NCBI GenBank assembly: GCA_004296775.1
Contig: RHGE01000019.1
Span: 1 to 64,000 of the forward strand
DNA from: Marinilabiliaceae bacterium JC017
GTDB lineage: Bacteria; Bacteroidota; Bacteroidia; Bacteroidales; Marinilabiliaceae
Direction of reading: 5' to 3'
Length of the DNA stretch: 64,000 bases
Shown here: one piece after another, positions 36,819 to 56,693 of the stretch
How the letters are laid out: each line of letters starts with the position of its first letter
Numbering within the stretch: position 1 is the stretch's first letter
Notes under the pieces: model-generated
What the model was told of the DNA's origin: nothing
The model's input: the letters and a program-made list of their open reading frames with translations, nothing else
Database searches by the model: none
Program-made: the position numbers and the translations under genes

Positions 36819-36845
36819 AGATCTCATTTTAATGAGATCTTTTTG
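36819..36845 (+). terminator. Rho-independent terminator upstream of the ECF sigma gene
   Basis: A perfect 10-bp stem AGATCTCATT/AATGAGATCT with a TT loop (36819-36840) is followed by TTTTTG. No coding gene precedes it on this strand, so it may end a transcript of the repeat array or insulate the sigma gene. Confidence 0.75.
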
Positions 36846-36893
36846 TGCAGGTTTTTTTTAAAATTGGCGTCATATATTACAGAGCCTGCTAAA

Positions 36894-38000: not shown

Positions 38001-38513
38001 ATGAATAAAGGATGTCAAATATGTTGGTGGGTTTTAGGTGTCTTTTTAATCGCTAATATTGGTTTTCTTGGGATTTGGTTTTCTAAGAATGCCGATGAGT
38101 TGAGAGGTTCCCGGCAGGATACGGAAACAAGTATTAAAAAGAAAAACGCTCGTCATTGTAAAATTATGGAGAAATTGGATCTGGATGAAGGACAGAAAAA
38201 AGCGTTTGTTCAGGAAAAAAGTTCATTTGGAAAAACGATTGGCGCGTTGCATCAGGAGATGGATAGTTTAAAATATGAGTTGGGCGGATTAATCTTTTCT
38301 GATTTCACTGACTCTGTTAAGCCAAATGAATTAATCGATCAGATTGTCTCCAAACAGAGAGCCATGGAGCTGCTCAGTTATCAACACTTTAAAACACTCA
38401 GAACTATTTGCAGGCCCGAGCAGCAGGCTGAGTTTGACAAGATGTTTAAAAAAGTGATGCGTCGGATGCGTCATCATGGCCATAGAGCGAAAAGCGTCAA
38501 AGGAAATCATTAA
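38001..38513 (+). CDS. Periplasmic heavy-metal-resistance/sensor-like protein (Metal_resist type)
   Basis: A 170-residue protein with an N-terminal membrane anchor (residues about 8-27) and a helical periplasmic domain. The segment KLDLDEGQKKAF corresponds to the first helix of CnrX/ZraP/Spy-like proteins, and RPEQQAEFDKMFKKVM to the last. The C-terminus is rich in His, Lys and Arg (RRMRHHGHRAK), a possible metal-binding tail. It probably senses metal or protein stress and acts with the preceding membrane protein on the ECF sigma factor. Confidence 0.7.
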   Translation: MNKGCQICWWVLGVFLIANIGFLGIWFSKNADELRGSRQDTETSIKKKNARHCKIMEKLDLDEGQKKAFVQEKSSFGKTIGALHQEMDSLKYELGGLIFSDFTDSVKPNELIDQIVSKQRAMELLSYQHFKTLRTICRPEQQAEFDKMFKKVMRRMRHHGHRAKSVKGNH

Positions 38514-38596
38514 AGTATTTATCAGTTTTTTATAAAGAAGTTATTGGACTGTAACTTCTAATGGGTGAATTGTATCTAATCGTAAATGGAAATGTT

Positions 38597-39499
38597 ATGA
38601 AACGAAGAGTGAAAATTCAGAATCTTGTGTTGGTGATGCTTATTTTGGCATTGCCGGGAACGATGATTGTGCAGGCAAAAAAACAAATGGGAGAACGGCC
38701 TGGTAAGCCTGTGGCCTGTATGCCGGTTGAACGAGCACATGGCGAAAGGATGGCTGATATGAATTTGACAGATATTCAAAAAGAGCAAATTCAGCAGTTG
38801 AAAATAGATTACTATAAACAGGTGTTACCTTTTAAGAATGAATTAAATGAAAAAAAAGCCCGTTTAAAGACGCTTGCAAGTGCAGAGTCGGTCAATTTTA
38901 AGTCAATAGAGAAAGTGTTGAAGGAAGAGAGCGGGTTACATGAAAAAATACAGAAAGCTAAAATCAGACATCTCCGGGAGGTAAGGTCAGTGCTTAATGA
39001 AGAGCAGCGTGTTTTATTTGATACCAGGGGCCATGAAATGAGGAAGGGAAAAATGCAAGATGCGCATTCAATGAAAATGCATGGTAACCGGGATAGAAAG
39101 CATGTGCAGGGAAAAAGGATGAAAAAGCACCAAGGTAGAGAGCAGCATAAGCATAAACACCCAATGGGGTTTGAAGATTTACAATTAACCGATGAACAAC
39201 AGGCGCAGGTGAAACAAGAACATCTGAAATTGATGAAAGAGGTTGCGTTACTGACTAATCAGGTGGCTGAGAAAAGAGCACGGCTAAGGACGCTTTCTGC
39301 ACGTGATAATGCTGACTTGCAGGCAATGGATAAAGTGGTTGATGAGATGGGACAGTTTCAGTTTGATATTGCTTTGTTGAAAGCTAAAAGCAGACAGCAT
39401 ATCCGATCCATCCTTACAGATGACCAACGGGTGTTATATGATATGAGGAAAGGTAAAAAAGATGGGCGTTGGCACTGCCCCAAATATTTAGGCGCTTAG
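38597..39499 (+). CDS. Spy/LTxxQ-like periplasmic protein with two repeats
   Basis: A 300-residue exported protein with a signal peptide (1-27, ending IVQA). It carries two copies of a helical Spy-like unit: MNLTDIQKEQIQQLKIDYYK (about 55-130) and LQLTDEQQAQVKQEHLKLMK (about 195-275). Each is followed by KxARLxTLxA and a helix ending in the similar RSVLNEEQRVLFD and RSILTDDQRVLYD. The linker between them (about 150-190) is rich in His, Met and Lys (HKHKHPMG), suggesting metal binding. Spy-family proteins are single-unit chaperones, so the tandem form is unusual. The ATG at 38597 is chosen because it directly starts the signal peptide. Confidence 0.8.
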   Translation: MKRRVKIQNLVLVMLILALPGTMIVQAKKQMGERPGKPVACMPVERAHGERMADMNLTDIQKEQIQQLKIDYYKQVLPFKNELNEKKARLKTLASAESVNFKSIEKVLKEESGLHEKIQKAKIRHLREVRSVLNEEQRVLFDTRGHEMRKGKMQDAHSMKMHGNRDRKHVQGKRMKKHQGREQHKHKHPMGFEDLQLTDEQQAQVKQEHLKLMKEVALLTNQVAEKRARLRTLSARDNADLQAMDKVVDEMGQFQFDIALLKAKSRQHIRSILTDDQRVLYDMRKGKKDGRWHCPKYLGA

Positions 39500-40772: not shown

Positions 40773-41663
40773 TTGGAAATAAAAATCGAAAATCTCGGAA
40801 AGGTTTACAATAACAATTTTAAAGCCCTTCAGAACATAAATTTAAGCATTGAGAATGGCATGTTTGGACTATTGGGTCCCAATGGCGCCGGAAAGTCAAC
40901 TTTGATGCGCATCTTGGTCACCCTGTTGAAACCGTCGTGTGGTGATGTATGGGTGAACGGTAAAAAGATGTCGGAAAACCGGAAAGAAGTGAGGGAATAT
41001 CTTGGTTATTTGCCTCAGGATTTTCGCTTTTTTTCAAAACTTAAAACATGGGAATTTCTTGATTATGCCGGGGCTTTAGCCGGGCTTAAAAAGCGTCGGG
41101 AAAGATTAAATGCGGTTGATGAGTTGCTGGAAAAGGTAGGGCTGTTTGATGTGCGCAACCGATATGCCAATAAACTTTCAGGGGGGATGAAGCGGCGGTT
41201 AGGGATAGCACAGGCCCTGATTGGGGATCCGAAAATTATCATCGTTGATGAACCAACGACTGGTTTGGATCCGGAGGAGCGGATCCGGTTCAGGAATATC
41301 CTGTCGGATCTCAGTCAAAAGGAGGTTATCATTATTTTATCTACCCACATTGTTGGCGATATTTCTTCTACCTGTGGGAATATGGCCCTTTTGAATAATG
41401 GTCAGGTGCATTTTCAGGGGGCTCCGCAGGATTTTATCGGGTTGGCCCGTGGAAAGGTGTGGAAAACAAGTGTGGCATTCGATCAGATAAAGGCGATTAA
41501 TGATGCTTATCCGGTGATTTCAACTATCCCCAGTGAAACCGGGTATGAGTTGGAACTGGTGGCGCCATCTCTTCAGGGAATAGAAGGAGAGAACATAGAA
41601 CCTAACCTGGAGCATGCCTATGTTTATTTTATGGAATTCGTTGCCAATACTCAATTGCCTTAA
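40773..41663 (+). CDS. ABC transporter ATP-binding protein
   Basis: A 296-residue ABC-2 type ATPase. It has the A-loop strand IKIENLGKVY (Y12), Walker A LLGPNGAGKST (from G35), a Q-loop LPQDFRFF, the signature LSGGMKRRLGIA, Walker B IIIVDEPTTGLDPEE and H-loop LSTHIVGD. The C-terminal about 75 residues (ARGKVWKTSVAFDQI...) form an extra domain shared with the ATPase fused to the RND protein downstream. The start is a TTG: a stop lies three codons upstream and the first internal ATG is inside the ATPase core. The permease gene follows after 6 nt, so it is the likely partner. Confidence 0.93.
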   Translation: MEIKIENLGKVYNNNFKALQNINLSIENGMFGLLGPNGAGKSTLMRILVTLLKPSCGDVWVNGKKMSENRKEVREYLGYLPQDFRFFSKLKTWEFLDYAGALAGLKKRRERLNAVDELLEKVGLFDVRNRYANKLSGGMKRRLGIAQALIGDPKIIIVDEPTTGLDPEERIRFRNILSDLSQKEVIIILSTHIVGDISSTCGNMALLNNGQVHFQGAPQDFIGLARGKVWKTSVAFDQIKAINDAYPVISTIPSETGYELELVAPSLQGIEGENIEPNLEHAYVYFMEFVANTQLP

Positions 41664-41669
41664 GTTATC

Positions 41670-44600
41670 ATGATATCACTTTTTCAAGTCAGAACCGTTG
41701 CTCAATTCGAATCTAAGACACTTTTACGAAGTTGGTTTTTTAGAATTTTCTCCGGTATAGCTGTTTTATTCATCTTTTTTTTCAATCTCTTTGGGATGAC
41801 ATCGCTGGGAGATGGGGCCTGGCCAGGTCGCTTGTTGCCTGCTTCTTGTCCTTACGTGAATCTCTTTTTCCTTAATGTAGCACAGGCTATTATTGCTGTT
41901 TTTCTCTCGGCTGATTTTTTGGGAAGAGATAAAAAACTGGATACCACCGAGGCTTTTTATATCAGGAGCATTTCAAATTCAGCCTATGTGTGGGGAAAGG
42001 CATTTGGCATTCTCAAAGTTTTCCTTGGATTAAACTTGTTAGTATTGGCTATTGGAGCTGTTTTTTCACTCATTCAAGGAGAGATGGCATTTAATCTCCC
42101 GGCTTATCTCATTTATCCGCTTTTAATTTCTTTGCCTACGTTGATTTTTATTTTAGGACTCTCCTTTTTTACCATGAGTCTGGTGCGTAATCAGGCAGTT
42201 ACGTTCGTGTTGTTGCTTGGCTATATAGCCGTTTCATTATTCTTTCTGAAGAGTAAGTTATATGGTGTGTGGGATGTTATTGGCTTTTTTACGCCGATGT
42301 TATTTTCCGATTTTACCGGTTTTTTTGATATCGCGCAATTGGTAGTGTTACGAATGGGGTACCTGGTTATGGGAGTGGCTCTTATTGCTGCCACCATATG
42401 GAAGTTACCTCGTTTGCCCCAAAAAAGGTTTTTTTCTATTCGAATGTCACTGGGAGTAATCCTTTTCTTGGTTATTGGAGCCGGGCTGTTTTCCCGTTAT
42501 TTATTTGTTCACCGTGATAAACTAAGGGTCAGGGAAGAAATAGCTTTGTTGAATGCTGATTTGGATGAAAGTGATGCCGGGATTCTTTCTTATGACATTG
42601 ATTTAGTACATCGAAGGAATGAAATTGAGTGTCATGCTCAACTGCAGGTAGCGGTAAATGATAGTTCAAGTATCCCTCTTGTATTTGTCTTAAATCCGGG
42701 TTTAAAAGTTAAATCTATTCACCTTGGCGTAAAAGCCGCTTCCTTTTCTCAGAATCATCATCTCTTAAAAATTAAAGATGAGACAAAGCATTGCAAAGGT
42801 GATACATTGGATGTTCAAATAAGATACGCCGGCAGCATCGATGAGAATGTGATGTTTATGGATATTAGTGAAGAGGTTCGCGGGGAAATAAACCGATTAG
42901 ATCCGGTTGTTGCCGGTAAAAACCATGCATATATAACACCTGATTATCTATTATTAACACGGGAGGCTGCCTGGTATCCGGTCATTGCCAGGAATCGCTA
43001 TTGGACTCAATATGCTTTTTCGCAGTTTAAATTAACGGTAACCACCAGGCCTGATTTAGTGGCTATATCGCAAGGGGTTGCTAATCATAAACAACCTGGT
43101 AACTGGGAATTTAAACCAGAGCAAAAGTTAAATGCGCTGAGTTTAGTAATTGGCGCCTATAGTAAGAAAGAATTAACTGTTGATTCTGTCGACTTACAAC
43201 TATATACTCATAAAAGTCATCAGACGTTGATTGAAAATTTTGATTTGCTTGAAGATACGATTCCTGAGTTGTTAAAATCCATTAAAAATGATTATGAGCG
43301 TAAAATAGGTTTTAGGTATCCCTTTAATCGTTTTATGGTGGTTGAGACGCCAATTCATTATTATGGATATATCAGGATGTGGTCCCTTGCCACCGAGCAT
43401 TTGATGCCGGAGATGGTGCTGTTTCCTGAAAATGGGGGAGGTACCTGGGAGAATGACTTTGTTTCCCAAGCAAAGCGGCAAAAAAGAAGAGCCAGGAGAA
43501 ATAATGAAGAACTAACTGACAGAGGCATCCAGGAACGGGTATTTCGTGGTTTGATCGGAAATAACTTTATCCATCCGCGGCGTTTTTTCTTTGGTGGAAG
43601 AGAGGCTGAACAACGGAATCTTGAAAACTGGGGTAAATTCATGGTTTTCCCGATGTTTTTTAATTATGCCAATAATATTGATCAGGCTGGTTTTCCAATG
43701 TTTAATATCTCGGTTGAGAATTACCTGTTTAATCGTCAGCAGGAACAGACAGGACATTTCTTTGGCGGATTGAATACCAATGATGAAGTGGTGATACGAA
43801 TGGCTGGCAAGAGTCTTTCGCAATTGATTGAAGAGGAAAATGAAAATACCCTTGGCGATGTTTTTGCCGCCAAGGGAAATCAACTTTTTAACAGCATGAA
43901 AGTGAGTCTGACAGGTAACGAATTTGACCGGTTTATCGATTCCCTTATTCAAGCGTATCAGTTCACTAACCTTGATGAGGTCCAGTTTATCAATGAAATC
44001 TCGGCCAGAACAAAAATTGATCTGAAGAGGACTTTCGATTATTGGTTGAATGAGCAATGTCTGCCGGCCTTTCTTTTAGGTGAGATAAAAGTGTGGGAGA
44101 TAAATGAAGGCAACCGGATACGTTATTTCATGAAGGTACCGGTTACCAATCAGGGACAAGTAGATGGAGTAATCAACTTTGTGGTGCGGGAAGGAATGGC
44201 TGGTAATCGGCGTGGCCGTTTCAGAAGACAGATGGGAGGTGGAAATAATGATCCTGATAGCCAGCAGAGTTTCCCGATTAAATCAGGTGAAACCGTAGAT
44301 ATTGGTTTTTTACTCGATCAGGAGCCGCGCGAAGTGGTTGTGAATACACTTCTTGCTGCAAATATTCCTTCTTCCCAAAGACTTGAAACCGGCAAGGTTA
44401 TTAAGGATCATCGGTTTAATGATTATTTTGAAGGTGTGCGGCAATCAACAAAGAAATTGCGTTATAAAGAAGTTTATGAAGTGATTGTCGATAATGAGGA
44501 TGAAGGGTGTGAGGTGATAAATACCGGAGAAAGCAGTACCGTAAAAGATTGGTGGGCAAACAGGCAGGAAGGGGGTACCAGTGTTGGTGACAAGAAATAT

Positions 44601-45008
44601 GGTAACCTGCGCTTATGGAATCCACCGGTAAAGTGGGAGTTGGTAGTAAATGGGAGTTATTTTGGGGAGTATATCAAATCGGCTTATTATAAACGCCGTG
44701 GAACCGGAGTTGGTCGAATACGATGGACTTGTCAAATTCCTGAAAGTGGAAATTATGGGGTATATGCTTATTTACCTGGTTCACGTCATCATTTCAGACG
44801 ACGTCGACATACCGGAGATGGCAGTTATTATTATACTGTTTTTCATGATGATGGGGATGTTGTAAGGCAAGTAAAATCAGCTGAAAGCGGTGATTGGCAG
44901 TACCTGGGAGAGTATTATTTTTCTGCGGGAGAGGGTGTGGTTGAGCTTTCAGATAAGACCGAAAATGACATAGTGGTGGGGGATGCCATCAAATGGGTCA
45001 GACGATAA
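41670..45008 (+). CDS. ABC-2 type permease fused to an M1-peptidase-like region and a golvesin-like domain
   Basis: A 1112-residue protein. Residues about 1-275 form an ABC-2 type membrane domain with six or seven helices, and another helix at about 265-285 leads outward. Residues about 300-800 resemble the M1 aminopeptidase fold seen in ABC permease/M1 fusions of Bacteroidetes. The zinc motif HExxH is missing: the matching segment reads VFRGLIGNNF (near residue 622). The region ends with DYWLNEQCLPAF, like the M1 C-terminus. Residues about 960-1112 (DWWANRQEGG..., IRWTCQIPESGNYGVYAYL, WQYLGEYYFSAGEGVVELSD) match a golvesin/xanthan-lyase-like beta domain. It is probably an extracytoplasmic binding device on the permease rather than an active protease. 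Confidence 0.8.
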   Translation: MISLFQVRTVAQFESKTLLRSWFFRIFSGIAVLFIFFFNLFGMTSLGDGAWPGRLLPASCPYVNLFFLNVAQAIIAVFLSADFLGRDKKLDTTEAFYIRSISNSAYVWGKAFGILKVFLGLNLLVLAIGAVFSLIQGEMAFNLPAYLIYPLLISLPTLIFILGLSFFTMSLVRNQAVTFVLLLGYIAVSLFFLKSKLYGVWDVIGFFTPMLFSDFTGFFDIAQLVVLRMGYLVMGVALIAATIWKLPRLPQKRFFSIRMSLGVILFLVIGAGLFSRYLFVHRDKLRVREEIALLNADLDESDAGILSYDIDLVHRRNEIECHAQLQVAVNDSSSIPLVFVLNPGLKVKSIHLGVKAASFSQNHHLLKIKDETKHCKGDTLDVQIRYAGSIDENVMFMDISEEVRGEINRLDPVVAGKNHAYITPDYLLLTREAAWYPVIARNRYWTQYAFSQFKLTVTTRPDLVAISQGVANHKQPGNWEFKPEQKLNALSLVIGAYSKKELTVDSVDLQLYTHKSHQTLIENFDLLEDTIPELLKSIKNDYERKIGFRYPFNRFMVVETPIHYYGYIRMWSLATEHLMPEMVLFPENGGGTWENDFVSQAKRQKRRARRNNEELTDRGIQERVFRGLIGNNFIHPRRFFFGGREAEQRNLENWGKFMVFPMFFNYANNIDQAGFPMFNISVENYLFNRQQEQTGHFFGGLNTNDEVVIRMAGKSLSQLIEEENENTLGDVFAAKGNQLFNSMKVSLTGNEFDRFIDSLIQAYQFTNLDEVQFINEISARTKIDLKRTFDYWLNEQCLPAFLLGEIKVWEINEGNRIRYFMKVPVTNQGQVDGVINFVVREGMAGNRRGRFRRQMGGGNNDPDSQQSFPIKSGETVDIGFLLDQEPREVVVNTLLAANIPSSQRLETGKVIKDHRFNDYFEGVRQSTKKLRYKEVYEVIVDNEDEGCEVINTGESSTVKDWWANRQEGGTSVGDKKYGNLRLWNPPVKWELVVNGSYFGEYIKSAYYKRRGTGVGRIRWTCQIPESGNYGVYAYLPGSRHHFRRRRHTGDGSYYYTVFHDDGDVVRQVKSAESGDWQYLGEYYFSAGEGVVELSDKTENDIVVGDAIKWVRR

Positions 45009-45038: not shown

Positions 45039-46520
45039 ATGAATCAGCTAATTCGAGGCTTTCTGTTTTTATTTTTAGTATTTATCCCGTGGCAGAAGTT
45101 GTTTGCTCAACGGTTACTTACGCTGCAACAATCGGTAAGTGAAGCACTGGAAAAGAGTCCGGAAATAAGGCAGGCCAAGGCAAATTTAATCTACAACAGG
45201 GAGAATTTGACCGCTCAACGTGCTTCACTTAAGTCAAAATTTAAGCTTAGTGTTACGCCCTATAAATATTCCAATAGTCGCAATTATGATGATTTTAATC
45301 AAGCCTGGTATAATGCTGAAAAAACATCAAGCTTTGGCACTTTGAGTGTGAATCAACCAATTGTATGGACCGATGGGGAATTGTCTCTGGTGAATCGGTT
45401 TGGTTGGGAAGACAATTACAGTTCTTCATCGGTTAATCAGCCATTCAAGGGATTCAGTAATAGTCTGGATTTGCGATTGAATCAGCCTGTTTTTACTTAC
45501 AACAGGCGTAAACTCGAATTGCGGGAGTTGGAACTTGCCTTTGAAAATGCGCAGTTAAGTTACGCTCTCAAAGAATTGAATATTGAAAAGCGGGTCACCG
45601 ATTATTTTTATCAGTTATATCAAACTCAAATGAATGTTTTGACTTACCGGGAAGAATATGCAAACCGGAAAAAAAGTTATGACATTATTAAAAACAAGGT
45701 GGAAGCTGGTTTAACAGCAAAGGAAGAGTTGCTTCAGGCCGAATTGGATTTGATGTCGAGTTCATCGACTCTCCAGAATAGTGAAGTTAACCTTGAAAAT
45801 GTGAAAGATAATTTCAAGCAGATGCTTGGTATTCCTTTGGAAGAGGAGATCATGGTGATTGCCGAAGTGAGCATTTTACCCGTTGATATAGATCTGGCAC
45901 AAGCTATTTCTTATGGTCTGAAGAATCGCATGGAAATTCGTCAGCGTGAAATAGAGATTGAGAAAGGTCAATTTGATATTATCAGAACCAATGCGTTAAA
46001 TGAGTTCAAGGGGAACGTTGGTTTATCTGTTGGCCTTTTTGGAAACGATGAACGGTTTCAGGATATATATGCGACGCCTAATGATAATCAGGATGTCTCG
46101 GTTAGTTTTGAAATACCCTTGTGGGATTGGGGAGAAAAGAAAGCTCGTTTGCGTGCCGCAGAAGCTAATTTGCAAGCCCAAGAGTTTAGATTGGAAGATG
46201 AGCAGATTGGTATCAAATTGTCCGTTCGTCAAATTCACCGCACCTTAAAAAATCTCTTGACTCAGATAAATATTGCCCGTAAAAATGAAGAAAATGCTAA
46301 GCTGACCTATGAAATAAATCTTGAAAAATATAAAAATGGAGATCTGACCAGTATGGATTTGAATTTGGTACAGAATCAGCTGACTCAAAAGAAGAATGAT
46401 TTAACCAGTGCACTGATAAATTACAAGCTTGAACTGCTGAATATGAAACTCCAGACATTGTATGATTTCGAAAATAAAGTGCCCGTGATACCGGAAGTAC
46501 TTAACCCCGAAAAAAGATAA
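45039..46520 (+). CDS. TolC family outer-membrane efflux protein
   Basis: A 493-residue outer-membrane channel protein with a signal peptide (1-24, ending KLFAQ). Two long coiled-coil repeats of TolC type are visible (LQQSVSEALEKSPEIRQAKA at the start, IAQAISYGL-like second repeat at about 285, and the long helices AEANLQAQEFRLEDEQIGIK). It supplies the exit duct for the transporters of this cluster. It lies 30 nt after the fused permease and before the adaptor lipoprotein, the usual tripartite export order. Confidence 0.92.
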   Translation: MNQLIRGFLFLFLVFIPWQKLFAQRLLTLQQSVSEALEKSPEIRQAKANLIYNRENLTAQRASLKSKFKLSVTPYKYSNSRNYDDFNQAWYNAEKTSSFGTLSVNQPIVWTDGELSLVNRFGWEDNYSSSSVNQPFKGFSNSLDLRLNQPVFTYNRRKLELRELELAFENAQLSYALKELNIEKRVTDYFYQLYQTQMNVLTYREEYANRKKSYDIIKNKVEAGLTAKEELLQAELDLMSSSSTLQNSEVNLENVKDNFKQMLGIPLEEEIMVIAEVSILPVDIDLAQAISYGLKNRMEIRQREIEIEKGQFDIIRTNALNEFKGNVGLSVGLFGNDERFQDIYATPNDNQDVSVSFEIPLWDWGEKKARLRAAEANLQAQEFRLEDEQIGIKLSVRQIHRTLKNLLTQINIARKNEENAKLTYEINLEKYKNGDLTSMDLNLVQNQLTQKKNDLTSALINYKLELLNMKLQTLYDFENKVPVIPEVLNPEKR

Positions 46521-46649
46521 TGAATCATGAAACAAAATCTGACTACGTTCTTCTTACATTTTGTCAAGAGGGGTTTTACCCAAATCCTAATCCCCATGAT
46601 TAAATTTGGTGAATACGCTCTGCCAATTGAAAAATCAAATAATAGATCA

Positions 46650-47702
46650 ATGAAAAATCCAATAATTCTTTGTCTGACTAATGTTCTTCTTTTTGTAGCC
46701 TGTAACAATCAGTCTTCCGATTTTAGTACGGATGTGGCAGTTAATGTCTCTGTTGAAGAGGTAGAATATAATCCCATTGAACAAACACTGATGGCAACCG
46801 GTACGATTAAACCTGTTATGGCTGTTATCATTAAAAATGAAATGGCAGGGAATTATTACCTCCAAAAGAATCCTCGTACCAGAAGCCCTTTTAAGATGGG
46901 AGATGAAGTGCAAAAAGGAGATCGGATAATAAGATTGGAAGATAAAGAGTATGAAAATAGAGCGAATATAGAAGGTGCACGATTAGATCTTGAAATTTCT
47001 GAAATGGAGTATAAGAAACAACAAGCGTTGTATGAGAAAGGGGGTGTTACATTGCGGGAGCTGGTTAACTCGGAGAAGACATTGGTTTCTGCACGTCAAA
47101 GCCATGAAAATGCCCAAATCAGTTTGGATAAGATGCAAATAGTGGCCCCTTTTTCGGGGGTTATTACCAATTTACCTTATTATTCTCAGGGTGTTAGGTT
47201 GGAGACTGGTCAGGAAGTGTTGAGCCTGATGAATTATTCTACCATGTTGATGGATTTACAGATGCCTGAGAATTTGATGGGAGAGGTAAAGATGAATCAG
47301 CTGGTTAATATTATGAATTATACTTTGCCTGATGATACGTTGAGAGGAAAAATTTCAGAATTGTCCCCGGCGATTGATGAAGCTACCCGCTCCTTTAAAG
47401 GCAGGGTTATCATTGAGAATGAATCCATGATGCTGAGACCTGGTATGTTTGTTAAGGCTGAAGTGGTGGTGGCTGCTAAAGACAGTGCTTTGGTTATCCC
47501 CAAAGATGTGGTTTTAGTTGAAGGTAACCGTAAAGTAGTATTTGTAGCCGCTAATGAAACAGCAGAGAAAAGATTTATAAAAACGGGGATTGAGAACAAT
47601 GGACAGTTGGAGGTGCTCGATGGCCTGAAGAAAGATGAGCGTGTGATCGTGAAAGGCTTTGAGACCTTGAAAGACCGGTCTAAAATTAATGTGGTAAAAT
47701 AG
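46650..47702 (+). CDS. RND periplasmic adaptor (HlyD/MFP family) lipoprotein
   Basis: A 350-residue membrane-fusion protein. The start MKNPIILCLTNVLLFVACNN at 46650 gives a clean lipoprotein signal (lipobox FVAC, C18); the frame is open 41 codons further upstream but that part has no family match. The order is lipoyl half, helical hairpin (ENRANIEGARLDLEISEMEY ... TLVSARQSHENAQISLDKM), second lipoyl half (IVAPFSGVITNLPYYSQG), beta-barrel and membrane-proximal domains. It links the inner-membrane pump to the TolC-type channel. It is 147 nt upstream of the first RND gene, with the same orientation. Confidence 0.92.
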   Translation: MKNPIILCLTNVLLFVACNNQSSDFSTDVAVNVSVEEVEYNPIEQTLMATGTIKPVMAVIIKNEMAGNYYLQKNPRTRSPFKMGDEVQKGDRIIRLEDKEYENRANIEGARLDLEISEMEYKKQQALYEKGGVTLRELVNSEKTLVSARQSHENAQISLDKMQIVAPFSGVITNLPYYSQGVRLETGQEVLSLMNYSTMLMDLQMPENLMGEVKMNQLVNIMNYTLPDDTLRGKISELSPAIDEATRSFKGRVIIENESMMLRPGMFVKAEVVVAAKDSALVIPKDVVLVEGNRKVVFVAANETAEKRFIKTGIENNGQLEVLDGLKKDERVIVKGFETLKDRSKINVVK

Positions 47703-47852
47703 CCATTTAATCAAGAAAAGAGATGAAATGTTCATACGAATTCAATTTCTACACAGAAGGATGATTAATAAAGAAAAACCCTGCGTCACAGTGTCTCTGT
47801 GTTCGCAATCTATTATCTCATATCTATCAGTCTTTTGTCTAATTTTAAATAT

Positions 47853-50800
47853 ATGAAAGTAATTGCCAGGTTTTCGGTTAACTATCCGGTTACTGTATTT
47901 ATGATAGTGCTTGGAGTGGTATTGCTGGGAGCCATATCCTTATCGCGTTTGGGAACGGATTTGTTTCCCGATTTGCAGAACCCGCGTTTATATGTGGAAA
48001 TAAAATCCGGCGAGCGTCCTCCTGAAGAGATAGAAACACGTTTTGTTGAAGCTATAGAAGCTTTAGCCATCCGACAAAGTGGTGTGATGAATGTGTCTTC
48101 TGTGAGTCAGGTAGGGGCCGGTCAGGTAACGGTTGATTATACCTGGAGCAAGGATATGGATGAAGCTTACTTGGATCTGCAAAAAGCTTTAGCAACGATT
48201 TCCCAGGATCCGGATATGGAAGCGTTCAATATTACCCGTTTTGATCCGAATTCTTCGCCAGTTATTCATGCTGCTTTGAGCCATGAAGAAATAAAAGATA
48301 TGAATGTGTTGCGCATGGTAGCTGACAATTATTTGCGTAATGAATTGATACGCATTGAAGGAATTGCTGATGTGCGGGTGTCGGGGGAAGAGATTGCCGA
48401 AGTGATGGTGGAAACGGATCCTGCCTCCTTAGAAGCGAATAATGTGACCTCTTCAGAAATTATTAATGCCATCTGGAATTTTAACAAGAATGTGTCGGGT
48501 GGTAACATTGAAGAGATGGGGCAAAAGTACATTATTAAAGGATTAAGTGCTTTGGTTTCGGTAAGTGATCTTGAGAATTTAGTAGTGAAGACAAAAACCA
48601 CTCCCTTAAGTAGTGTTACCTCAGTAGATCAGAAAGCGACTTCTGTTCCCTTGTTATTAAAGGAAGTAGCTATGGTTTCAGTAAAGAATCAAAAGCCGGA
48701 AACCATTGTACGTCTGAATGGGGAACGATGTCTGGGGATCTCAATCTATAAAGAGATGCGTTTTAATACGGTGGAGGCCGTTGAGAAAGTGCAACAGGCT
48801 TTTAGGAAAATTAAAAAACGGTTGCCGGGATATGAGTTGAAAGTAATTAAAAATCAAGGGGTATTTATACAAAGTGCCATAGGAGAAGTTGAGGAGAGTG
48901 CTTTAATTGGTATTGTTTTCGCGGTGTTTGTGTTGTTTCTTTTTCTTCGTCGGTTTGGTGTAACACTTATTGTGAGTGTTGCCATTCCTATTTCTGTGAT
49001 TGCTACATTTAATCTGATGTATTTTAATGGGCTTACGCTTAATGTTATGACACTTGGTGGATTAGCCTTGGGCGCCGGAATGTTGGTTGATAATGCCATT
49101 GTGGTAGTGGAAAATATCTATCGGAAGTTGGAAGAGGGCCTGTCTTTAAAGCAGGCCGCCATTGAGGGGGCTGCCGGTGTAGGAGGTGCGCTGACTGCAT
49201 CAACACTCACCACCATCGTGGTTTTTCTTCCTATTGTATACCTGCATGGGGCATCTGGTGAGTTGTTTAAAGATCAGGCCTGGACAGTAGCCTTTTCTTT
49301 GTTCTCTTCATTGGTAGTGGCTTTGATATTGATTCCCCTGTTGAGTAATCTTTTCCTGGGTGAACGGAAACCGAATGCCCGGCAACAGGAAGGTATAAGG
49401 TTGACATGGTATGGGCATTTGCTTGGCCGAATTCTCGAACACAGAAAACTCGTCATTTTGGCAGCTATTCTATTATGCTTGTTAAGCGGGCTATTGATTC
49501 CCCAAATTGGCAGTGAATTTATGCCGGAAACACAGTCGCGTCAGGTCACTATCCAAACTACCTTGCCGGCAGGGACTGCCCTGGAAAAATGTGATCGTAC
49601 TTTGGAACAAATGGAAGAGATGGTTTACGGATTGCTCGACGATAAAATCGACTGGACCTTCATTCATGCCGGACCGGAAACTGCGCAAGCATCATCAGTA
49701 CAATCGCTTCAGGGAGAAAACACAGGGTATTTGAAGTTGGCATTAAAACCAGATGTGGAGATTAATTATTCTGAATTGATGGCTGCCTTAGATCATCTCT
49801 TTACCGGGATTAGCGGTTTGGATGTACAATTTAAGCAGGATGAGTCGGTGTTACAAAATATTTTAGGTAGTGATGAGGCGCCGTTGTTGACCGAAGTGAG
49901 TGGGGATGACCTGGAAGTGCTGGAACAAGTCACGGAGGCGTTTGTTGGTATAATGCGATCTCAAGGAAATGTATATAATGTTAAAAGCACATTTGAAAAT
50001 GGTGCTCCCGAAGTAAATATTAAGATCGACCGTTTGAAAGCCGGGATCTATAATCTGGAGGTTTCGGCTATAATGGATCAAATAAAAAGCTTTCTTTCCG
50101 GTAAAGATGGCGGTCGCATGGAATTGAAGGGGGAGATTACTGATATATCCCTTAAAATGCCGGAGGTACAACTCAATGAACTGAAAAACTTGAAAATAAA
50201 AAGTGGGGATAAAAATTATTTATTGTCTGAATTGGCCCAAATCAACATTGGCCGGTCCCCTCGGGAGATTAGAAGAAATAATCAAAAGCGGGTAGCGCAA
50301 ATCAGTGCAATGGTGACAGAGGATAAGCCTTTTGATCATGTGGTAAAGGAACTGGAGCAGCAGATTGGAGCAGTAGTTTTACCTGCCGGGGTAAATGTAA
50401 AGGTATTGGGTGCCGAACAAAAGAGAAAGGAAGCTTTTGGGAGCCTTAGTTTTGCCCTGATCTTATCAATTGTCTTGGTGTATATGGTGATGGCCTCTCA
50501 ATTTGAATCATTGATTCATCCATTTACTATTTTGCTAACAATTCCATTGGCTGGGGTAGGCGCCATACTTGCGTTTTTCTTTTTAGGAAAGACTTTTAAT
50601 ATCATGGCTTTCATAGGTATCGTAATGCTTGCAGGAATTGCTGTGAATGATTCCATAATATTGGTGGATGCGATAAATCAGTTAAAAAGGAGGGGAAGGT
50701 CATTAACAGACGCTATTGTTGAAGCAGGCGAGCAACGCATCAGACCGATTCTAATGACCAGTGCCACTACTATTCTGGCTTTATTGCCGTTGACATTTGG

Positions 50801-50954
50801 ATTTGGGGACAGTGCGGCCTTGAGAGCACCAATGGCAATTGCGGTAATAGGTGGTTTAATCACTTCCACCTTATTGTCGCTTGTGGTTATTCCATGTGTT
50901 TATTATGTGTTTGACAGTGTGGTTGTCAGGTTTTCAGACAGGCATTCGAAATAA
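47853..50954 (+). CDS. RND efflux permease (first of two)
   Basis: A 1033-residue AcrB/HAE1-type inner-membrane pump with twelve predicted helices and two large periplasmic loops. The ATG at 47853 (MKVIARFSVNYPVTVFM) is used. Key sites differ from AcrB: the TM4 pair D407-D408 is D413-N414 (MLVDNAIVVVENI), and the TM10 lysine K940 is V931 (AGIAVNDSIILVD). Such substitutions occur in other Bacteroidetes RND proteins, so they do not prove loss of transport, but the canonical proton relay is incomplete. It forms a pair with the next gene, reminiscent of heteromeric MdtBC-type pumps. Confidence 0.93.
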   Translation: MKVIARFSVNYPVTVFMIVLGVVLLGAISLSRLGTDLFPDLQNPRLYVEIKSGERPPEEIETRFVEAIEALAIRQSGVMNVSSVSQVGAGQVTVDYTWSKDMDEAYLDLQKALATISQDPDMEAFNITRFDPNSSPVIHAALSHEEIKDMNVLRMVADNYLRNELIRIEGIADVRVSGEEIAEVMVETDPASLEANNVTSSEIINAIWNFNKNVSGGNIEEMGQKYIIKGLSALVSVSDLENLVVKTKTTPLSSVTSVDQKATSVPLLLKEVAMVSVKNQKPETIVRLNGERCLGISIYKEMRFNTVEAVEKVQQAFRKIKKRLPGYELKVIKNQGVFIQSAIGEVEESALIGIVFAVFVLFLFLRRFGVTLIVSVAIPISVIATFNLMYFNGLTLNVMTLGGLALGAGMLVDNAIVVVENIYRKLEEGLSLKQAAIEGAAGVGGALTASTLTTIVVFLPIVYLHGASGELFKDQAWTVAFSLFSSLVVALILIPLLSNLFLGERKPNARQQEGIRLTWYGHLLGRILEHRKLVILAAILLCLLSGLLIPQIGSEFMPETQSRQVTIQTTLPAGTALEKCDRTLEQMEEMVYGLLDDKIDWTFIHAGPETAQASSVQSLQGENTGYLKLALKPDVEINYSELMAALDHLFTGISGLDVQFKQDESVLQNILGSDEAPLLTEVSGDDLEVLEQVTEAFVGIMRSQGNVYNVKSTFENGAPEVNIKIDRLKAGIYNLEVSAIMDQIKSFLSGKDGGRMELKGEITDISLKMPEVQLNELKNLKIKSGDKNYLLSELAQINIGRSPREIRRNNQKRVAQISAMVTEDKPFDHVVKELEQQIGAVVLPAGVNVKVLGAEQKRKEAFGSLSFALILSIVLVYMVMASQFESLIHPFTILLTIPLAGVGAILAFFFLGKTFNIMAFIGIVMLAGIAVNDSIILVDAINQLKRRGRSLTDAIVEAGEQRIRPILMTSATTILALLPLTFGFGDSAALRAPMAIAVIGGLITSTLLSLVVIPCVYYVFDSVVVRFSDRHSK

Positions 50955-50984: not shown

Positions 50985-53900
50985 ATGAATATCCTTATTG
51001 AAAGGAAAGTGCTGGTAAGTATGTTTTTTATTGCCCTGACCATGTTGGGGGTAATCTCATACAGGCAGTTGTCATTTGAATTATTACCCAATACGGAATA
51101 TCCCATGCTTTTTGTACAGGTGCTCAGTTCAACAGAAACTGATCCGGCCTATGTAGAAAAAGAAGCCATTGTTCCCATGGAAGGAGTTGTGGCCGGATTA
51201 GAGGGTGTTGAGAAGATAGAGAGTCGTGTTAACCCGGGGAGGGGCATGATAATGGTCTATCTGAACAAAAATGTAAGTGTGAAATATAGTTACCTCAAGC
51301 TGGTTGAGAAAGTAGAAAGTGCAAGAAATTTGTTGCCAGAAGACTTCAGAGCAGAGGTGATGAGAGTCGATATGGAGCAGTTTACTAACAAATTCATTCA
51401 ATTACAGGTTAGGGGTGAAGGAGGTGTAGACCGGGTGCGAAATATCGTGGATCAGGAGATTAAAGGTAAGTTGGAAAGTATCGATGGAATCGCTGGTGTT
51501 GAGGTGTTTGGTGGTCGTCAGAAATCTGTTGAGATAACCATTGATGAAAATGTCCTGAAGAGTCACAACCTCACTTTGGGTGGAATCAGGCAGAAGATAA
51601 CCAGTGGTCAAAATGCCAGGGTGTTTGCAGGGGAGGTCATTGATGGAACAACGCGCTATTATGTGGCTGCTGAAGCCGATTATAACAATATCAGAGACAT
51701 TGGCAATATTGTTGTGAAGCCTGAAGGTCCGGTGTTGTTAAATGATATTGCGGTCATCCGGTTTGGGGTGAAAGAGGACGAATCGTATAGCCGGGTCAAT
51801 GGGAAAGAATCGGTAACGCTTACCCTTGCAAAAGAGGCACAAGTGAATATGATTGACCTGTCTCGCAAGGTACTTAAAGAGATTGATCGGTTAAATGCCT
51901 CGTATCAAGATAAGGGTGTTGAGTTGGTGGTTGAGACCAATGAAGCAGAGACCATGGAAACGAATTTGGATCAGATTATTTTTCTGGCATTGGTCGGAGG
52001 AGCGTTGGCGATCTTCATTTTGTGGATCTTTCTAAAGAATGTGCCATTGGTTACGATAGTGATGTTGTCCTTACCTATTTCTGTTTATGGGGCCTTCAAC
52101 TTCTTTTATAGTGCAGGAATATCCATAAATGTATTAACACTTGTTGGCCTGGCCTTGGCAATTGGTATGTTGATTGATAACAGCGTGGTGGTGCTGGAGA
52201 ATATTTACCAGGTTGCCTCATCAGGAAGGTTCAGCTCCAGGGAGAGTGTGGTGAAAGGGACCAAAGAAGTCTGGCGTTCTGTCATTGCAGCAACTTTAAC
52301 TACTGTATCGATTTTTGTTCCTTTTGTTTTTTCCTCTAATGTGTTTTTTCGGGAGATGGCGCGTCATATCAGTGTTTCTATTGTATCTACACTGATTGTT
52401 TCCCTGGTCGTGGCATTAATTCTTATTCCCATGTTGACGCATCTGTTTTTGAGTCGTGTGATTAAAGATCGAATTCATGCGTTGGAGAAATTGTCATTGC
52501 ATAACCGGTTGGTACAAGGTTATATATTATTATTGAAAACAACACTTAGAAGGCCGGCTCAAACCATTCTTATTGCTTTGGTTCTCTTTTTTAGTGTGCT
52601 GCTTATTAGTGCCGGACTTAATATCGCCGGACAACAAGAGACAGAAACAACAGAGTTTATGCTCAGTCTGGAAATGCCTTCGGGTTCTACGCTATCTACC
52701 ACCGATAAGGTGGTTAGGGAAATAGAAAAACGATTAGCTGATTTGGCAGAGAAAAAGGATGTTATCAGCCAGGTGTATGAACAGGAGGCTAATATAACGG
52801 TTCGGTTGGACAAGAATTATAAGCAGATTGATGGTCGTTCCATTCCTGAAATCAAGCAAGATATCCAAGGGCGTATCGCCAATATTGAAGGAGGTGAAAT
52901 CAATCTTTCTCAGAGTAGCACGACAGATAATGATGGTGGTTTCGGAACAAATCCTGGTTTGGGAATGATGGGTTTTTTGGGTGTTGGTCAACAGAATGAA
53001 AAGGTGGTTATTACAGGAGAAAACTATGATCAGATGTTGTTGGTAGCTAATGATATCAAATATTATCTGGAAAACAATATTGAAAACCTGCAGCGTGTCT
53101 CTATCTCTACGGCCATGCCACGTCCGGAAGTACATCTTGATATGGACGCCTATTTGATGGGAATGCATGGCATTAATCCGGCCACGGTGGCTTCGGAACT
53201 GTTTACCTTTCGGCCTGAGGTGAGTTCGGGAGGGAAACTCAAAGTTAACAATGAGGAGTATGATATTTTACTGAAAACAAATACAGCAAGCGAAGCTATT
53301 AATACATCAAAAACCATGGATGACCTGGAAAAGTTACAGGTGAGGGGTGCTCAAAATGCATTGTTTCCGTTGAAAGATTTTTCAGAGATAAATTATGCCA
53401 GGGGAAGGTCAGAAATTCAACGTGTGAATCAACAGAAACAGATTGAAGTCATTTATCGGTTTTCAGAGGAGGTGAAAAGTGATGGAACTTTGTTAGAGGA
53501 ATCCCGGCAGGCTGTTGATGATTTGGTGGCATCCGTTCCATTGACGGCAGATGTAGCTGTTAAAGTTATTCATCAGGAGGATATTTATGAAGAGTATAAA
53601 TTTCTGGCCTTGGTAGGACTCGTCCTTATTTTTATGATTCTGGCATCGGTATTTGAATCGCTGGCTGCTCCGGTAGTAATGATGTTTTCCATCCCTCTGG
53701 CTGCTATTGGTTCCTTGCTGGCCCTTGTGTTTACAGGTAATTCGTTGCTTAATCCCAACACATTTATAGGCTATCTGATACTTCTGGGGGTAGTGGTGAA
53801 TAATGGCATCTTGCTAATAGATTATTCACGACAATTGAGAAAGCAGGGATATAATCATATCAGGGCATTAGTAGAAGCGGGGATATCCAGGATCAGGCCG

Positions 53901-55721
53901 GTATTGATTACAGCGACAACAACCATTGTGGCGATGGTGCCGTTAGCTATGGGAAAATCCGAATTCGTTGGGTCGTTAGGGGCCCCGTTTGCCATAACTG
54001 TAATTGGTGGTTTGAGCTTTTGTACATTGTTGACATTGGTGTTTATCCCGACCTTTGGATTTGGTTTTGAGCGAGCACTGGATTGGATACGTGCCTTACC
54101 ATTGAAGCTGAAGTTACTTGTTTTTTCAGGCTGGGGTATTGGTTATACCTGGCTTTATTTCTATTCCAATAGTGGGTTTATATGGCAAATGCTTTTAGTA
54201 GTATTAATCACAGTTGGTGTTCCTGCTGTTCTCTATTTTGTTTTGACCAGTCTTAAGATGGCCCAAAGCAAGCTCATTGCCCCCGATGAACTTATCACTA
54301 TAAATATTCGAAATCTGGTAAAAGTATATGGTCGGGATACCCGGTTTGTACGAGAATGGAAGAGTCGGGAGAAAATGGCCGGGAGGAGAGAAAATGTTAA
54401 CGCCGGGAATAAAAAGCAGTTTGTGGAGGGATTGATTTGGCAGCTGCCTTTATTAGGTTTTGTTATCTATTTTACCTGGTGGTATCTCGATAACGATTTC
54501 TGGTTGTTAATCTTTACAGTGATAAACTATTTTATATTCCAGTCATTTTTAGGCCATCTCTTTCCGAATAGGGGTGGTGAAACTGTTATAAAAAAGACAG
54601 AGGCGAAGGTGACCTGGTATAACAGAATCAGGGGAGGTGTCTATTGGGGTTATCCATTGATTGGAATGACATTTATTCTTTTAAGATGGGATTCAAAGAT
54701 TGGAGGAGTCATTATTACCCTGCTGTGGTATTTGGTACTTTTATTGATAGAGTCAGGGAAAAAGCTGAAAAGAGAAGGGGTTAATATTGAGCGTATAACC
54801 GGGCGTTTCACCAGCTTGAGAAAGCCTTATTACCGCTTACTTCAACAGCTCCCCTTTATTGGGAAAGAGAAGCAGCCCTTCAAGGCGCTTAAAGGGGTGT
54901 CGTTGCAAATTAATACCGGAATGATTGGATTGCTGGGGCCCAACGGAGCCGGTAAAACCACTTTAATGCGGATTATCTGTGGTATTCTCGATCAAAGCTA
55001 TGGTAAAGTCTTTATAAATGGCTTTGATACGACTGAAAAACGAGAGGAATTGCAGGGTCTCATAGGTTATCTGCCTCAGGAGTTTGGGACCTATGAAAAT
55101 ATGTCTGCCTATGAGTTTCTGGATTACCAGGCTATTTTGAGGCATATAACGGATACTGAAGTTCGGCAGGGTCGGGTTAAGTATGTGCTGGAAGCCGTGA
55201 ATATGTGGGAGAAGAAGGATAATAAAATAGGCTCCTTTTCCGGGGGGATGAAACAGCGGATCGGTATTGCCATGATATTACTCCATTTGCCCAAAATACT
55301 TGTAGTGGATGAACCCACAGCCGGTCTGGATCCAAGGGAACGTATCCGGTTCCGGAATCTGTTGGTGGAATTAAGCAGGGAGCGTATCGTATTATTCTCT
55401 ACCCATATCATTGAAGATATTTCCAGTTCATGTAACCAGGTGGCGGTCCTTAATCGGGGAGAGTTGAAATATTGGGGGAAACCGGGTGAAATGGTGAATA
55501 TTGCCCGTAATAAGGTTTGGCAATTTGATGTGGGTATCGATGAATTCGCAAGTCTTAATGGGCGGCTGAAAGTAGTGCACCACATGCGTGATGGTAATAA
55601 AATAAGAGTCAGGTGTCTTTCCAGGGAGCAGCCCGTAGAAAATGCCAGATTGGTCATGCCGGTATTGGAAGATGCCTATATCTGGTTATTAGGAAAAGCG
55701 GTAATTGATGAAACGGTTTAA
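50985..55721 (+). CDS. RND efflux permease fused to an ABC ATPase through a membrane insert
   Basis: A 1578-residue single chain. Residues 1-about 1035 are a complete RND permease (TM4 MLIDNSVVVLENI with D398-N399; TM10 LLGVVVNNGILLID with V938 where AcrB has Lys). Two more helices follow (about 1041-1089). Next comes an ABC A-loop strand, INIRNLVKVYG (Y1115), then about 180 inserted residues with four predicted helices (about 1149-1168, 1172-1194, 1218-1235, 1239-1257). The ATPase then resumes with Walker A LLGPNGAGKTT (G1318), Q-loop LPQEFGTYE, signature FSGGMKQRIGIA (1418-), Walker B VVDEPTAGLD (D1442, E1443) and H-loop STHIIED (H1474). All ATPase motifs are intact. No stop or frameshift interrupts the joins. 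Confidence 0.9.
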   Translation: MNILIERKVLVSMFFIALTMLGVISYRQLSFELLPNTEYPMLFVQVLSSTETDPAYVEKEAIVPMEGVVAGLEGVEKIESRVNPGRGMIMVYLNKNVSVKYSYLKLVEKVESARNLLPEDFRAEVMRVDMEQFTNKFIQLQVRGEGGVDRVRNIVDQEIKGKLESIDGIAGVEVFGGRQKSVEITIDENVLKSHNLTLGGIRQKITSGQNARVFAGEVIDGTTRYYVAAEADYNNIRDIGNIVVKPEGPVLLNDIAVIRFGVKEDESYSRVNGKESVTLTLAKEAQVNMIDLSRKVLKEIDRLNASYQDKGVELVVETNEAETMETNLDQIIFLALVGGALAIFILWIFLKNVPLVTIVMLSLPISVYGAFNFFYSAGISINVLTLVGLALAIGMLIDNSVVVLENIYQVASSGRFSSRESVVKGTKEVWRSVIAATLTTVSIFVPFVFSSNVFFREMARHISVSIVSTLIVSLVVALILIPMLTHLFLSRVIKDRIHALEKLSLHNRLVQGYILLLKTTLRRPAQTILIALVLFFSVLLISAGLNIAGQQETETTEFMLSLEMPSGSTLSTTDKVVREIEKRLADLAEKKDVISQVYEQEANITVRLDKNYKQIDGRSIPEIKQDIQGRIANIEGGEINLSQSSTTDNDGGFGTNPGLGMMGFLGVGQQNEKVVITGENYDQMLLVANDIKYYLENNIENLQRVSISTAMPRPEVHLDMDAYLMGMHGINPATVASELFTFRPEVSSGGKLKVNNEEYDILLKTNTASEAINTSKTMDDLEKLQVRGAQNALFPLKDFSEINYARGRSEIQRVNQQKQIEVIYRFSEEVKSDGTLLEESRQAVDDLVASVPLTADVAVKVIHQEDIYEEYKFLALVGLVLIFMILASVFESLAAPVVMMFSIPLAAIGSLLALVFTGNSLLNPNTFIGYLILLGVVVNNGILLIDYSRQLRKQGYNHIRALVEAGISRIRPVLITATTTIVAMVPLAMGKSEFVGSLGAPFAITVIGGLSFCTLLTLVFIPTFGFGFERALDWIRALPLKLKLLVFSGWGIGYTWLYFYSNSGFIWQMLLVVLITVGVPAVLYFVLTSLKMAQSKLIAPDELITINIRNLVKVYGRDTRFVREWKSREKMAGRRENVNAGNKKQFVEGLIWQLPLLGFVIYFTWWYLDNDFWLLIFTVINYFIFQSFLGHLFPNRGGETVIKKTEAKVTWYNRIRGGVYWGYPLIGMTFILLRWDSKIGGVIITLLWYLVLLLIESGKKLKREGVNIERITGRFTSLRKPYYRLLQQLPFIGKEKQPFKALKGVSLQINTGMIGLLGPNGAGKTTLMRIICGILDQSYGKVFINGFDTTEKREELQGLIGYLPQEFGTYENMSAYEFLDYQAILRHITDTEVRQGRVKYVLEAVNMWEKKDNKIGSFSGGMKQRIGIAMILLHLPKILVVDEPTAGLDPRERIRFRNLLVELSRERIVLFSTHIIEDISSSCNQVAVLNRGELKYWGKPGEMVNIARNKVWQFDVGIDEFASLNGRLKVVHHMRDGNKIRVRCLSREQPVENARLVMPVLEDAYIWLLGKAVIDETV

Positions 55722-55935: not shown

Positions 55936-55988
55936 GCGGTTTGAGCGCAATAGAGATTATAATTTATTTTGGACAATATTCAATTGAA

Positions 55989-56693
55989 ATGAAAAAAGCT
56001 ATAGTAACCGTCATTAATATGATGAAATATAATCTGAAGGTGGTTTTCGGGAATAAGTTTATTTATTTTCTTGGTGCTTCCCTGATCTTCTATTTTCTAA
56101 TTGCTTTGATTAATCTGTTTTCAGAAGAATCGGTGACGGTGGAGGGTGTTTATTTTCAGTTAATGTTTCCGGCTTTTTTATTGGTTTTCTTTCCCACCAC
56201 CTATAGTATCCAGAATGACGAAGATTCGCGTATCCTGGAGATAATATTTGGTATTCCAAATTACCGTTACAAGGTCTGGCTTATCCGTTTGGTGATGACC
56301 TTGGTGATGGTCTTTAGCTTTCTGATGTTGATGGCTTTTATGAGCAGCGTTTTATTAATTCATGTACCACTATGGCAGATGACGTTGCGGTTAATGGTAC
56401 CGGTGACATTTTTAGGGATGTTAGGTTTTTTCTTTTCTACGATTATCAAAAATGGGAATGGGACTGCTGTAGTTATGGTGGTTATAGGTCTTGTTATCTG
56501 GATTACTTCTGAGTTTATACCAAACAGCAAATGGAATGTTTTTCTTAATCCTTTTGACTTACCACGTAATATGAGTGAAGCGGTATGGACAAGTGTAGTA
56601 TTGGCGAATCAGCGTATTTTGCTTATTTCTTCGTTTGTCGCTGTGTTATGGGGATTACTTAATCTGCAAAAACGTGAGAAATTCATTCGGTAA
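55989..56693 (+). CDS. ABC-2 type permease subunit
   Basis: A 234-residue integral membrane protein with six predicted helices (for example FIYFLGASLIFYFLIALINL, LMFPAFLLVFFPTTYSI, LVMTLVMVFSFLMLMAFMSS). The charged segment FPTTYSIQNDEDSRILEIIF resembles the coupling region of ABC-2 permeases. The ATG at 55989 is used. It has no ATPase gene of its own; the ATPase fused to the preceding RND protein is the obvious candidate partner. This is an inference from position. Confidence 0.85.
   Translation: MKKAIVTVINMMKYNLKVVFGNKFIYFLGASLIFYFLIALINLFSEESVTVEGVYFQLMFPAFLLVFFPTTYSIQNDEDSRILEIIFGIPNYRYKVWLIRLVMTLVMVFSFLMLMAFMSSVLLIHVPLWQMTLRLMVPVTFLGMLGFFFSTIIKNGNGTAVVMVVIGLVIWITSEFIPNSKWNVFLNPFDLPRNMSEAVWTSVVLANQRILLISSFVAVLWGLLNLQKREKFIR

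Follow-up and report, generated by a model that had tools for sequence, protein, structure and literature searches.

RND pumps are driven by proton motive force and ABC pumps by ATP; the two are treated as separate superfamilies and are normally separate proteins. The locus described here, in a stretch of 64,000 nucleotides from Marinilabiliaceae bacterium JC017 (the window), raises the question of whether one chain can carry both and, if so, what the ATPase does there. An earlier sequence-only reading had reported one uninterrupted frame of 1578 codons joining a complete RND permease to an intact ABC ATPase, with 203 residues between the A-loop and Walker A where the neighbouring ABC gene has 23. 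We confirmed the frame, its ATG start and both distances, and Pfam matches together with invariant motifs bear out the two complete domains. The coordinates of the fusion, its parts and its neighbours are collected in Table 1.

Table 1. Positions in the window of the RND::ABC fusion, its parts and the genes around it
Feature	Position	Strand	Remarks
ECF sigma factor, first gene of upstream cluster	36843..37475	+
Metal_resist/CpxP-like protein 1	38001..38513	+	below Pfam gathering score
Metal_resist/CpxP-like protein 2	38561..39499	+	upstream cluster
Free-standing ABC ATPase	40773..41663	+	unit gene
ABC-2-type membrane domain (6 helices + 1) + M1-peptidase-like part without HExxH + golvesin C-terminal domain	41670..45008	+
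TolC-type outer-membrane channel	45039..46520	+
Periplasmic adaptor (HlyD/RND_mfp)	46527..47702	+
First RND permease (RND1)	47799..50954	+	likely start ATG 47853
RND::ABC fusion protein	50985..55721	+	1578 aa, ATG start, single open frame
RND (HAE/AcrB-type) permease core	50985..54074	+	residues 1-1030
Two-helix membrane hairpin	54102..54266	+	residues 1040-1094 (model)
ABC ATPase strand 1, ending in A-loop Y1115	54300..54329	+	residues 1106-1115
Four-helix membrane insert inside ATPase	54411..54776	+	residues 1143-1264 (model)
Rest of ABC ATPase	54879..55499	+	residues 1299-1505: Walker A G1318, Q-loop Q1365, signature S1419, catalytic E1443, H1474
C-terminal extension of fused ATPase	55500..55718	+	residues 1506-1578
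Small ABC-2 type permease	55941..56693	+	6 predicted helices; likely start ATG 55989

Domains and occurrence of the RND::ABC frame

By Pfam, the fusion has a full-length RND permease domain of the HAE/AcrB type, with ACR_tran (PF00873) spanning residues 2-1024 at 528.9 bits against a cut-off of 28 (E 3e-158), and ABC_tran is matched at residues 1302-1446 (E 1.5e-28). Scores with the narrower NCBIfam models were below their cut-offs, both for the RND part (MdtB/MuxB, 261.5 bits with 1584 needed; MdtC, 231.1 with 1774 needed) and for the fused ATPase (DrrA, 169.1 with 312.45 needed; GldA, 175.7 with 402.6 needed). When the fusion was searched against PDB sequences, each of the best 60 of the 184 matches aligned best within the RND part, and the ATPase was reached by none of them.

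The sequence-only reading had named an assembly or frameshift error at the join as a way in which it could be wrong, and had proposed a search for homologues with the same join. The near-genome query consisted of the linker and insert only (residues 1036-1300). These were matched in 33 of the 100 near genomes (own included), 30 of which have them in one open frame of 1555-1591 amino acids; among the three carriers without a full frame, G081 and G070 start at a contig end and G042 is a broken copy. A scan of named genomes yielded at least 592 candidate stretches, at least 356 of them encoding relatives, and the best 80 of these relatives were retained for analysis. An insert-bearing ORF was found in all 80 loci, and in 68 it is closed and longer than 1500 amino acids, two of these (L083, which has an N-run, and L125) looking cut in the first part. 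Ten of the other 12 run into contig ends, and L123 and L133 are interrupted. A filter on length and completeness left out 14 of the 80 insert-bearing ORFs, and the remaining 66 complete relatives together with the window chain make up the set of 67 chains (1567-1589 amino acids) used below.

The window assembly is a draft of 500 contigs, so an artefact that joined two genes deserves mention; the same frame recurs, however, across many genomes, some of one or few contigs (G041, G031) and some from named strains, among them Prolixibacter denitrificans DSM 27267 (L116), and for this reason the artefact is rejected as vanishingly improbable. The proposed homologues thus exist, and the feared error did not occur. 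The evidence supports the RND::ABC join as real and contained in one chain, the ATPase being split but complete.

The fusion system is patchy in its occurrence, being missing from 67 of the 100 near genomes and from 389 of the 395 genomes of a whole-phylum sample, in which the linker and insert were matched in six (own included). Titles of the records that carry it include Carboxylicivirga, Labilibacter, Plebeiobacterium, Prolixibacter, Mangrovibacterium, Sunxiuqinia and Ancylomarina; many others are metagenome bins labelled as Prolixibacteraceae, Bacteroidales or Bacteroidota, and a few records bear the names Melioribacteraceae, Krumholzibacteriota or Deferribacteres. In four of these last (L139 and L152, Krumholzibacteriota; L117, Melioribacteraceae; L095, titled Deferribacteres) the fusion is present with neighbouring genes, and their ATPases nest among the Bacteroidota copies, which could reflect either horizontal transfer or misnamed bins.

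No insert-bearing ATPase without an RND part was seen among the loci examined; L098, L099 and L141 have insert and ABC parts without RND, but their ORFs are open at the contig start. The RND part also appears to stand apart from its unfused relatives among the matches listed. In a search of 198 phylum genomes, three other fused copies were listed at 44-51% identity (932-1064 bits), and the best unfused match among those listed reached at most 29% identity and at most 381 bits; the scoring covered no more than a few candidates in each genome.

Predicted fold and conservation of the split ATPase

The spacing between Y1115 and the Walker A residue G1318, 203 residues in the fusion, lies between 194 and 203 across the 67 complete chains; the same spacing is 19 or 23 in 23 orthologues of the operon's free ABC gene. 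An AlphaFold2 model of residues 1028-1578 (model 1: single chain, 67 rows; model residue + 1027 = chain residue) had a mean pLDDT of 81.5 and a pTM of 0.67. It places, in order, a hairpin of two helices (1040-1060 and 1065-1094), the strand 1106-1115, four long helices (1143-1167, 1171-1192, 1206-1234 and 1238-1264) and the remaining ATPase. A second model covering residues 379-1578 (single chain, 67 rows), and so without the first RND helices, showed the elements in the same order, with less confidence (pLDDT 73.2), and had low TM-scores with AcrB-type chains (0.29-0.32 by query length).

Comparison of model 1 with solved structures suggests that the pre-insert strand stands where solved ABC ATPases have their strand 1. 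In 42 of the 50 solved chains listed, the alignment starts at model residue 73-78, that is, at 1100-1105 of the chain (Z 21.5-24.0), and near-whole ATPases are covered by the model: 212 of 218 residues of FtsE and 221 of 226 of LptB (LptB residues 2..227). In the predicted model the nucleotide-binding-domain fold is therefore complete. Since the pre-insert strand completes the ATPase fold, the insert would form a loop of four membrane helices separating strand 1 from strand 2. The sequence-only reading had asked whether the A-loop strand could still pack on the ATPase despite the insert, and in the model it is placed there.

The extra helices and the four insert helices of that reading fared less evenly. 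The model has them all, but in the window protein one helix of the hairpin and one of the insert escape hydropathy at the chosen threshold, which picks up one of two and three of four, respectively; the full count therefore comes from the model. The predicted topology has 12 + 2 helices, strand 1 inside, the four helices, and then the ATPase inside. A topology with the ATPase outside the cytoplasm, which had been named as grounds for doubting the fusion, is thus not what is predicted. Charge counts agree with an inner strand 1 and ATPase, but this is a weak test, the outer turns being only 3-4 residues long.

The insert was also compared with known families and chains. Pfam gave five families, each in one of 31 insert members and with E values of 0.0046 to 0.08; a PDB search by sequence found no chain for the insert; and the structure-search lists for the fusion models were filled by matches to the ATPase or the RND part.

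The motifs expected of an ABC ATPase (Walker A and B, Q-loop, signature, catalytic glutamate, H-loop and A-loop aromatic) are all present in the fused domain. Y1115, the Walker A motif GPNGAGK (G1318, K1324), Q1365, the signature SGGMKQR (S1419-R1425), D1442, E1443 and H1474 are invariant in all 67 chains. Over the ATPase region 1296-1505, 82 of 210 positions are invariant, as are 128 of 1030 in the RND part, 7 of 175 in the insert and 4 of 60 in the hairpin region.

In AcrB the proton-relay residues are D407, D408, K940 and R971. The fusion chains keep the equivalents of D407 and R971 (D398 and R971) in 67 of 67 cases, have asparagine at the position of D408 (N399 in 66 of 67, with one cysteine), and have asparagine again at that of K940. 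The resulting D-N-N-N-R pattern is the same in four unfused relatives, a comparison that left out L005, L008, L166 and L167, which had been read in a wrong frame. Given the conserved ATPase residues and the retained RND pattern, neither of the two engines looks dead, as far as sequence can tell.

The seven-gene unit

The sequence-only reading did not describe the operon in which the fusion sits, with its second ABC ATPase, second ABC-2-type protein and second RND permease. Seven genes run in one direction: ABC ATPase, ABC-2/M1-like protein, TolC-type channel, adaptor, RND permease (RND1), RND::ABC fusion and small ABC-2 permease. By the listed starts, the gaps between them are 6, 30, 6, 96, 30 and 219 bases. 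The GTG start listed for RND1 is probably too far upstream, the later ATG giving the usual RND N-terminus. In all, the unit encodes two ABC ATPases, two ABC-2-type proteins and two RND permeases.

Neighbours were counted in the named loci and in a second, overlapping locus set, using only loci with enough flank. RND1 lies upstream of the fusion in 62 of 64 named loci and 26 of 27 of the second set; the misses are L083 and L056 (N-run; RND1 present further off) and L133, a broken copy. The adaptor (60 of 60 and 26 of 26) and the TolC-type channel (57 of 57 and 26 of 26) were found in every locus counted, and in the second set so was the M1-like protein (25 of 25), with the free ATPase in 22 of 23. 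The seven-gene unit is conserved.

The M1-like protein has six predicted helices plus one in the window copy. ABC2_membrane_2 is matched in 8 of 18 members, the window protein having no such match, and the golvesin C-terminal domain is found in all 18 scanned. The HExxH zinc site of M1 aminopeptidase is absent from the window protein and from 22 of 23 orthologues, the lone match being HETKH at 885 in L070; possibly, the M1-like part is a binding rather than a cleaving domain.

The small ABC-2 permease is directly downstream of the fusion in all 71 named loci and all 28 second-set loci with at least 1200 bases of flank. Searched on its own in the 100 near genomes, it was found in 32 of 33 carriers of the fusion and in 0 of 67 non-carriers (Fisher 2e-25, without correction for kinship, the genomes not being independent because the genes of the unit are inherited together). 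In the sole carrier without it, G050, the fusion lies within 150 bases of a contig end, and in G019, G044 and G056 the small permease is on another contig because the contig of the fusion ends.

Its assignment comes from its relatives: with Pfam matches accepted up to E 1, ABC2_membrane_3 is matched in 4 of 38 members (best E 3.3e-6), and Acyl_transf_3 is also matched weakly by 4 of 38 (best E 0.011). The window's own copy had no Pfam match, a PDB search by sequence found none for this protein, and its profile gave no alignment with the M1-like protein and no match to the fusion insert.

Regions upstream of the operon were examined in 23 relatives, 20 of them over 5.5 kb and the others over 4.1, 3.4 and 1.5 kb. 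An ECF sigma gene in the same direction, with Metal_resist-like genes, lies ahead of the operon in 11 of the 23, and none was seen in the other 12. The Metal_resist-like genes number two in ten of these loci, as in the window, and one in L221. CnrYXH/CnrCBA likewise has an ECF sigma factor and a periplasmic sensor of the Metal_resist fold beside an RND pump; the likeness is by Pfam and position only. The cluster points to control by metal or envelope stress, not to the identity of the substrate. Just downstream of the operon, window positions 57571-59595 encode a protein that has a DUF4842 domain and an N-terminus resembling that of a lipoprotein; no evidence links this gene to the pump.

Possible coupling of the two engines and relation to known systems

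On balance, we lean towards the fusion being the second subunit of a two-subunit RND pump that covalently carries the ATPase of an ABC-2 exporter. As adjacency and co-occurrence suggest, the fused ATPase would energise the small ABC-2 permease next to it, possibly as a partner of the free ATPase and the M1-like ABC-2 protein, and the small permease would move or flip the substrate across the inner membrane. The two RND subunits may form a mixed trimer, as the available text of PMC4338810 suggests for MdtBC, a B2C trimer. This trimer would pick up the substrate from the periplasm or outer leaflet and, with the adaptor and the TolC-type channel, send it out by the proton gradient. With the ATPase kept alongside the RND bundle by the hairpin and insert, the two steps would stay together. 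One guess is that the fusion occurs twice per trimer, which would give exactly two ATPases, enough for one ABC exporter.

The sequence-only reading had offered two guesses, that ATP hydrolysis is coupled to RND-type export or that the chain tethers an ATPase for the adjacent ABC-2 permease. Tethering is the better supported of the two, since the small permease both adjoins the fusion and co-occurs with it. We put forward more tentatively, at somewhat less than even confidence, a dual-energy trans-envelope exporter in which ATP hydrolysis by the split ATPase is mechanically coupled to the proton-driven RND cycle, the ABC-2 and RND-TolC steps forming one machine.

A reading that overlaps the preferred one, so that our confidences in the readings do not sum to one, is that both ATPases and both ABC-2-type proteins (the M1-like and the small one) assemble into a single heteromeric ABC exporter, with the fused ATPase docking it on the RND pump. 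The unit has the two ATPases and two ABC-2-type membrane proteins that such an exporter would use, and no other ABC protein of its genome matches the fusion as strongly as the free ATPase does (41% identity over 288 residues). In an enlarged tree, 19 further ATPases were added (from 21 loci, of which L185 and L190 gave no row), and 11 of 14 paralogues were omitted together with one identical row. There the fused ATPases make up a single clade (99/99 support) that groups weakly (85/75) with the added free ATPases and not with the operon's own, which tells against this reading. We regard a heteromeric exporter as a real possibility, but one that we do not quite expect. When only one genome's paralogues were included, the free and the fused ATPase of the unit came out as sisters (95/95); this relation was lost on adding the free ATPases, and we rejected it. 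One of the sequences in the enlarged tree, L183, belongs to a genome that itself has the fusion, and probably represents the operon's copy.

The ATPase could instead gate or drive the RND cycle itself, giving a true dual-energy RND pump with the small permease as an accessory. The covalent link, through a hairpin that in the model directly follows RND helix 12, would suit such a role, as would an ATPase far more conserved than the linker. Against it, the RND part retains the relay pattern of its four unfused relatives and shows no visible loss of its own proton path, and nothing would explain why the ABC-2 permease occurs together with the fusion; we think this reading unlikely. A role purely as regulator or as anchor for assembly, in which the fused ATPase, restrained perhaps by the membrane insert within it, does not power transport, is quite improbable, because the catalytic residues invariant in 67 chains would be needless in a non-hydrolysing domain.

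Several known systems resemble the preferred arrangement, an RND subunit carrying the ATPase of an ABC-2 exporter, in part. MdtABC also has two RND permeases with an adaptor and a TolC-type channel, and the RND part of the fusion is AcrB-like; the difference is that here the second permease bears a hairpin, a four-helix insert and an ABC ATPase, in a unit with extra ABC genes. The nearest precedent comes from mycobacteria, where the RND protein MmpL7 and the ABC-2 transporter DrrABC are both needed for one lipid, and MmpL7, which is without the canonical proton-relay residues, has been proposed as a scaffold for DrrABC, without direct evidence (available text of PMC11539658). This is likewise an RND and ABC-2 partnership, and the fused ATPase matches the DrrA model below its cut-off, but there the proteins are separate, whereas here they share one chain, D398 and R971 are kept, and adaptor and channel genes are present.

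MacAB-TolC resembles the unit in bringing together an ABC ATPase, an adaptor and a TolC-type channel for trans-envelope export. MacAB is not known to include an RND component. The MacB ATPase lies at the N-terminus of its own permease, and the available text of PMC8277102, the source for this, does not mention an RND::ABC fusion. The fused ATPase finds some of its best matches, by family and by fold, in GldA/NosF/DrrA/ABCA-like ATPases, and ABCA1/3/4/7 and NosDFY are among the Foldseek matches listed for its model. ATPases of this kind are known as separate subunits or parts of ABC chains, without RND. An extra segment inside an ATP-binding domain is familiar from CFTR, whose regulatory insertion lies between the first strands of NBD1. 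According to the available text of PMC7350234, that insertion has 32 residues and is unstructured in the crystal; it is short there, whereas four membrane helices are predicted here.

A search of the open-licence literature (titles and abstract openings) found no description of an RND::ABC chain or of a membrane insert in an ABC ATPase. Each domain is familiar; within that literature, nothing appears to have been written on the single chain, the split ATPase or the seven-gene unit. With a conserved chain that has invariant ATPase residues and the main RND aspartate, one can test directly whether cargo can pass from an ABC step to an RND pump, a question left open for MmpL7 and DrrABC in the available text of PMC11539658. 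The chain would also be an example of a membrane-spanning insert being tolerated between strands 1 and 2 of an ABC ATPase. Together, the conserved join and the constant partner genes suggest one machine using both energy sources.
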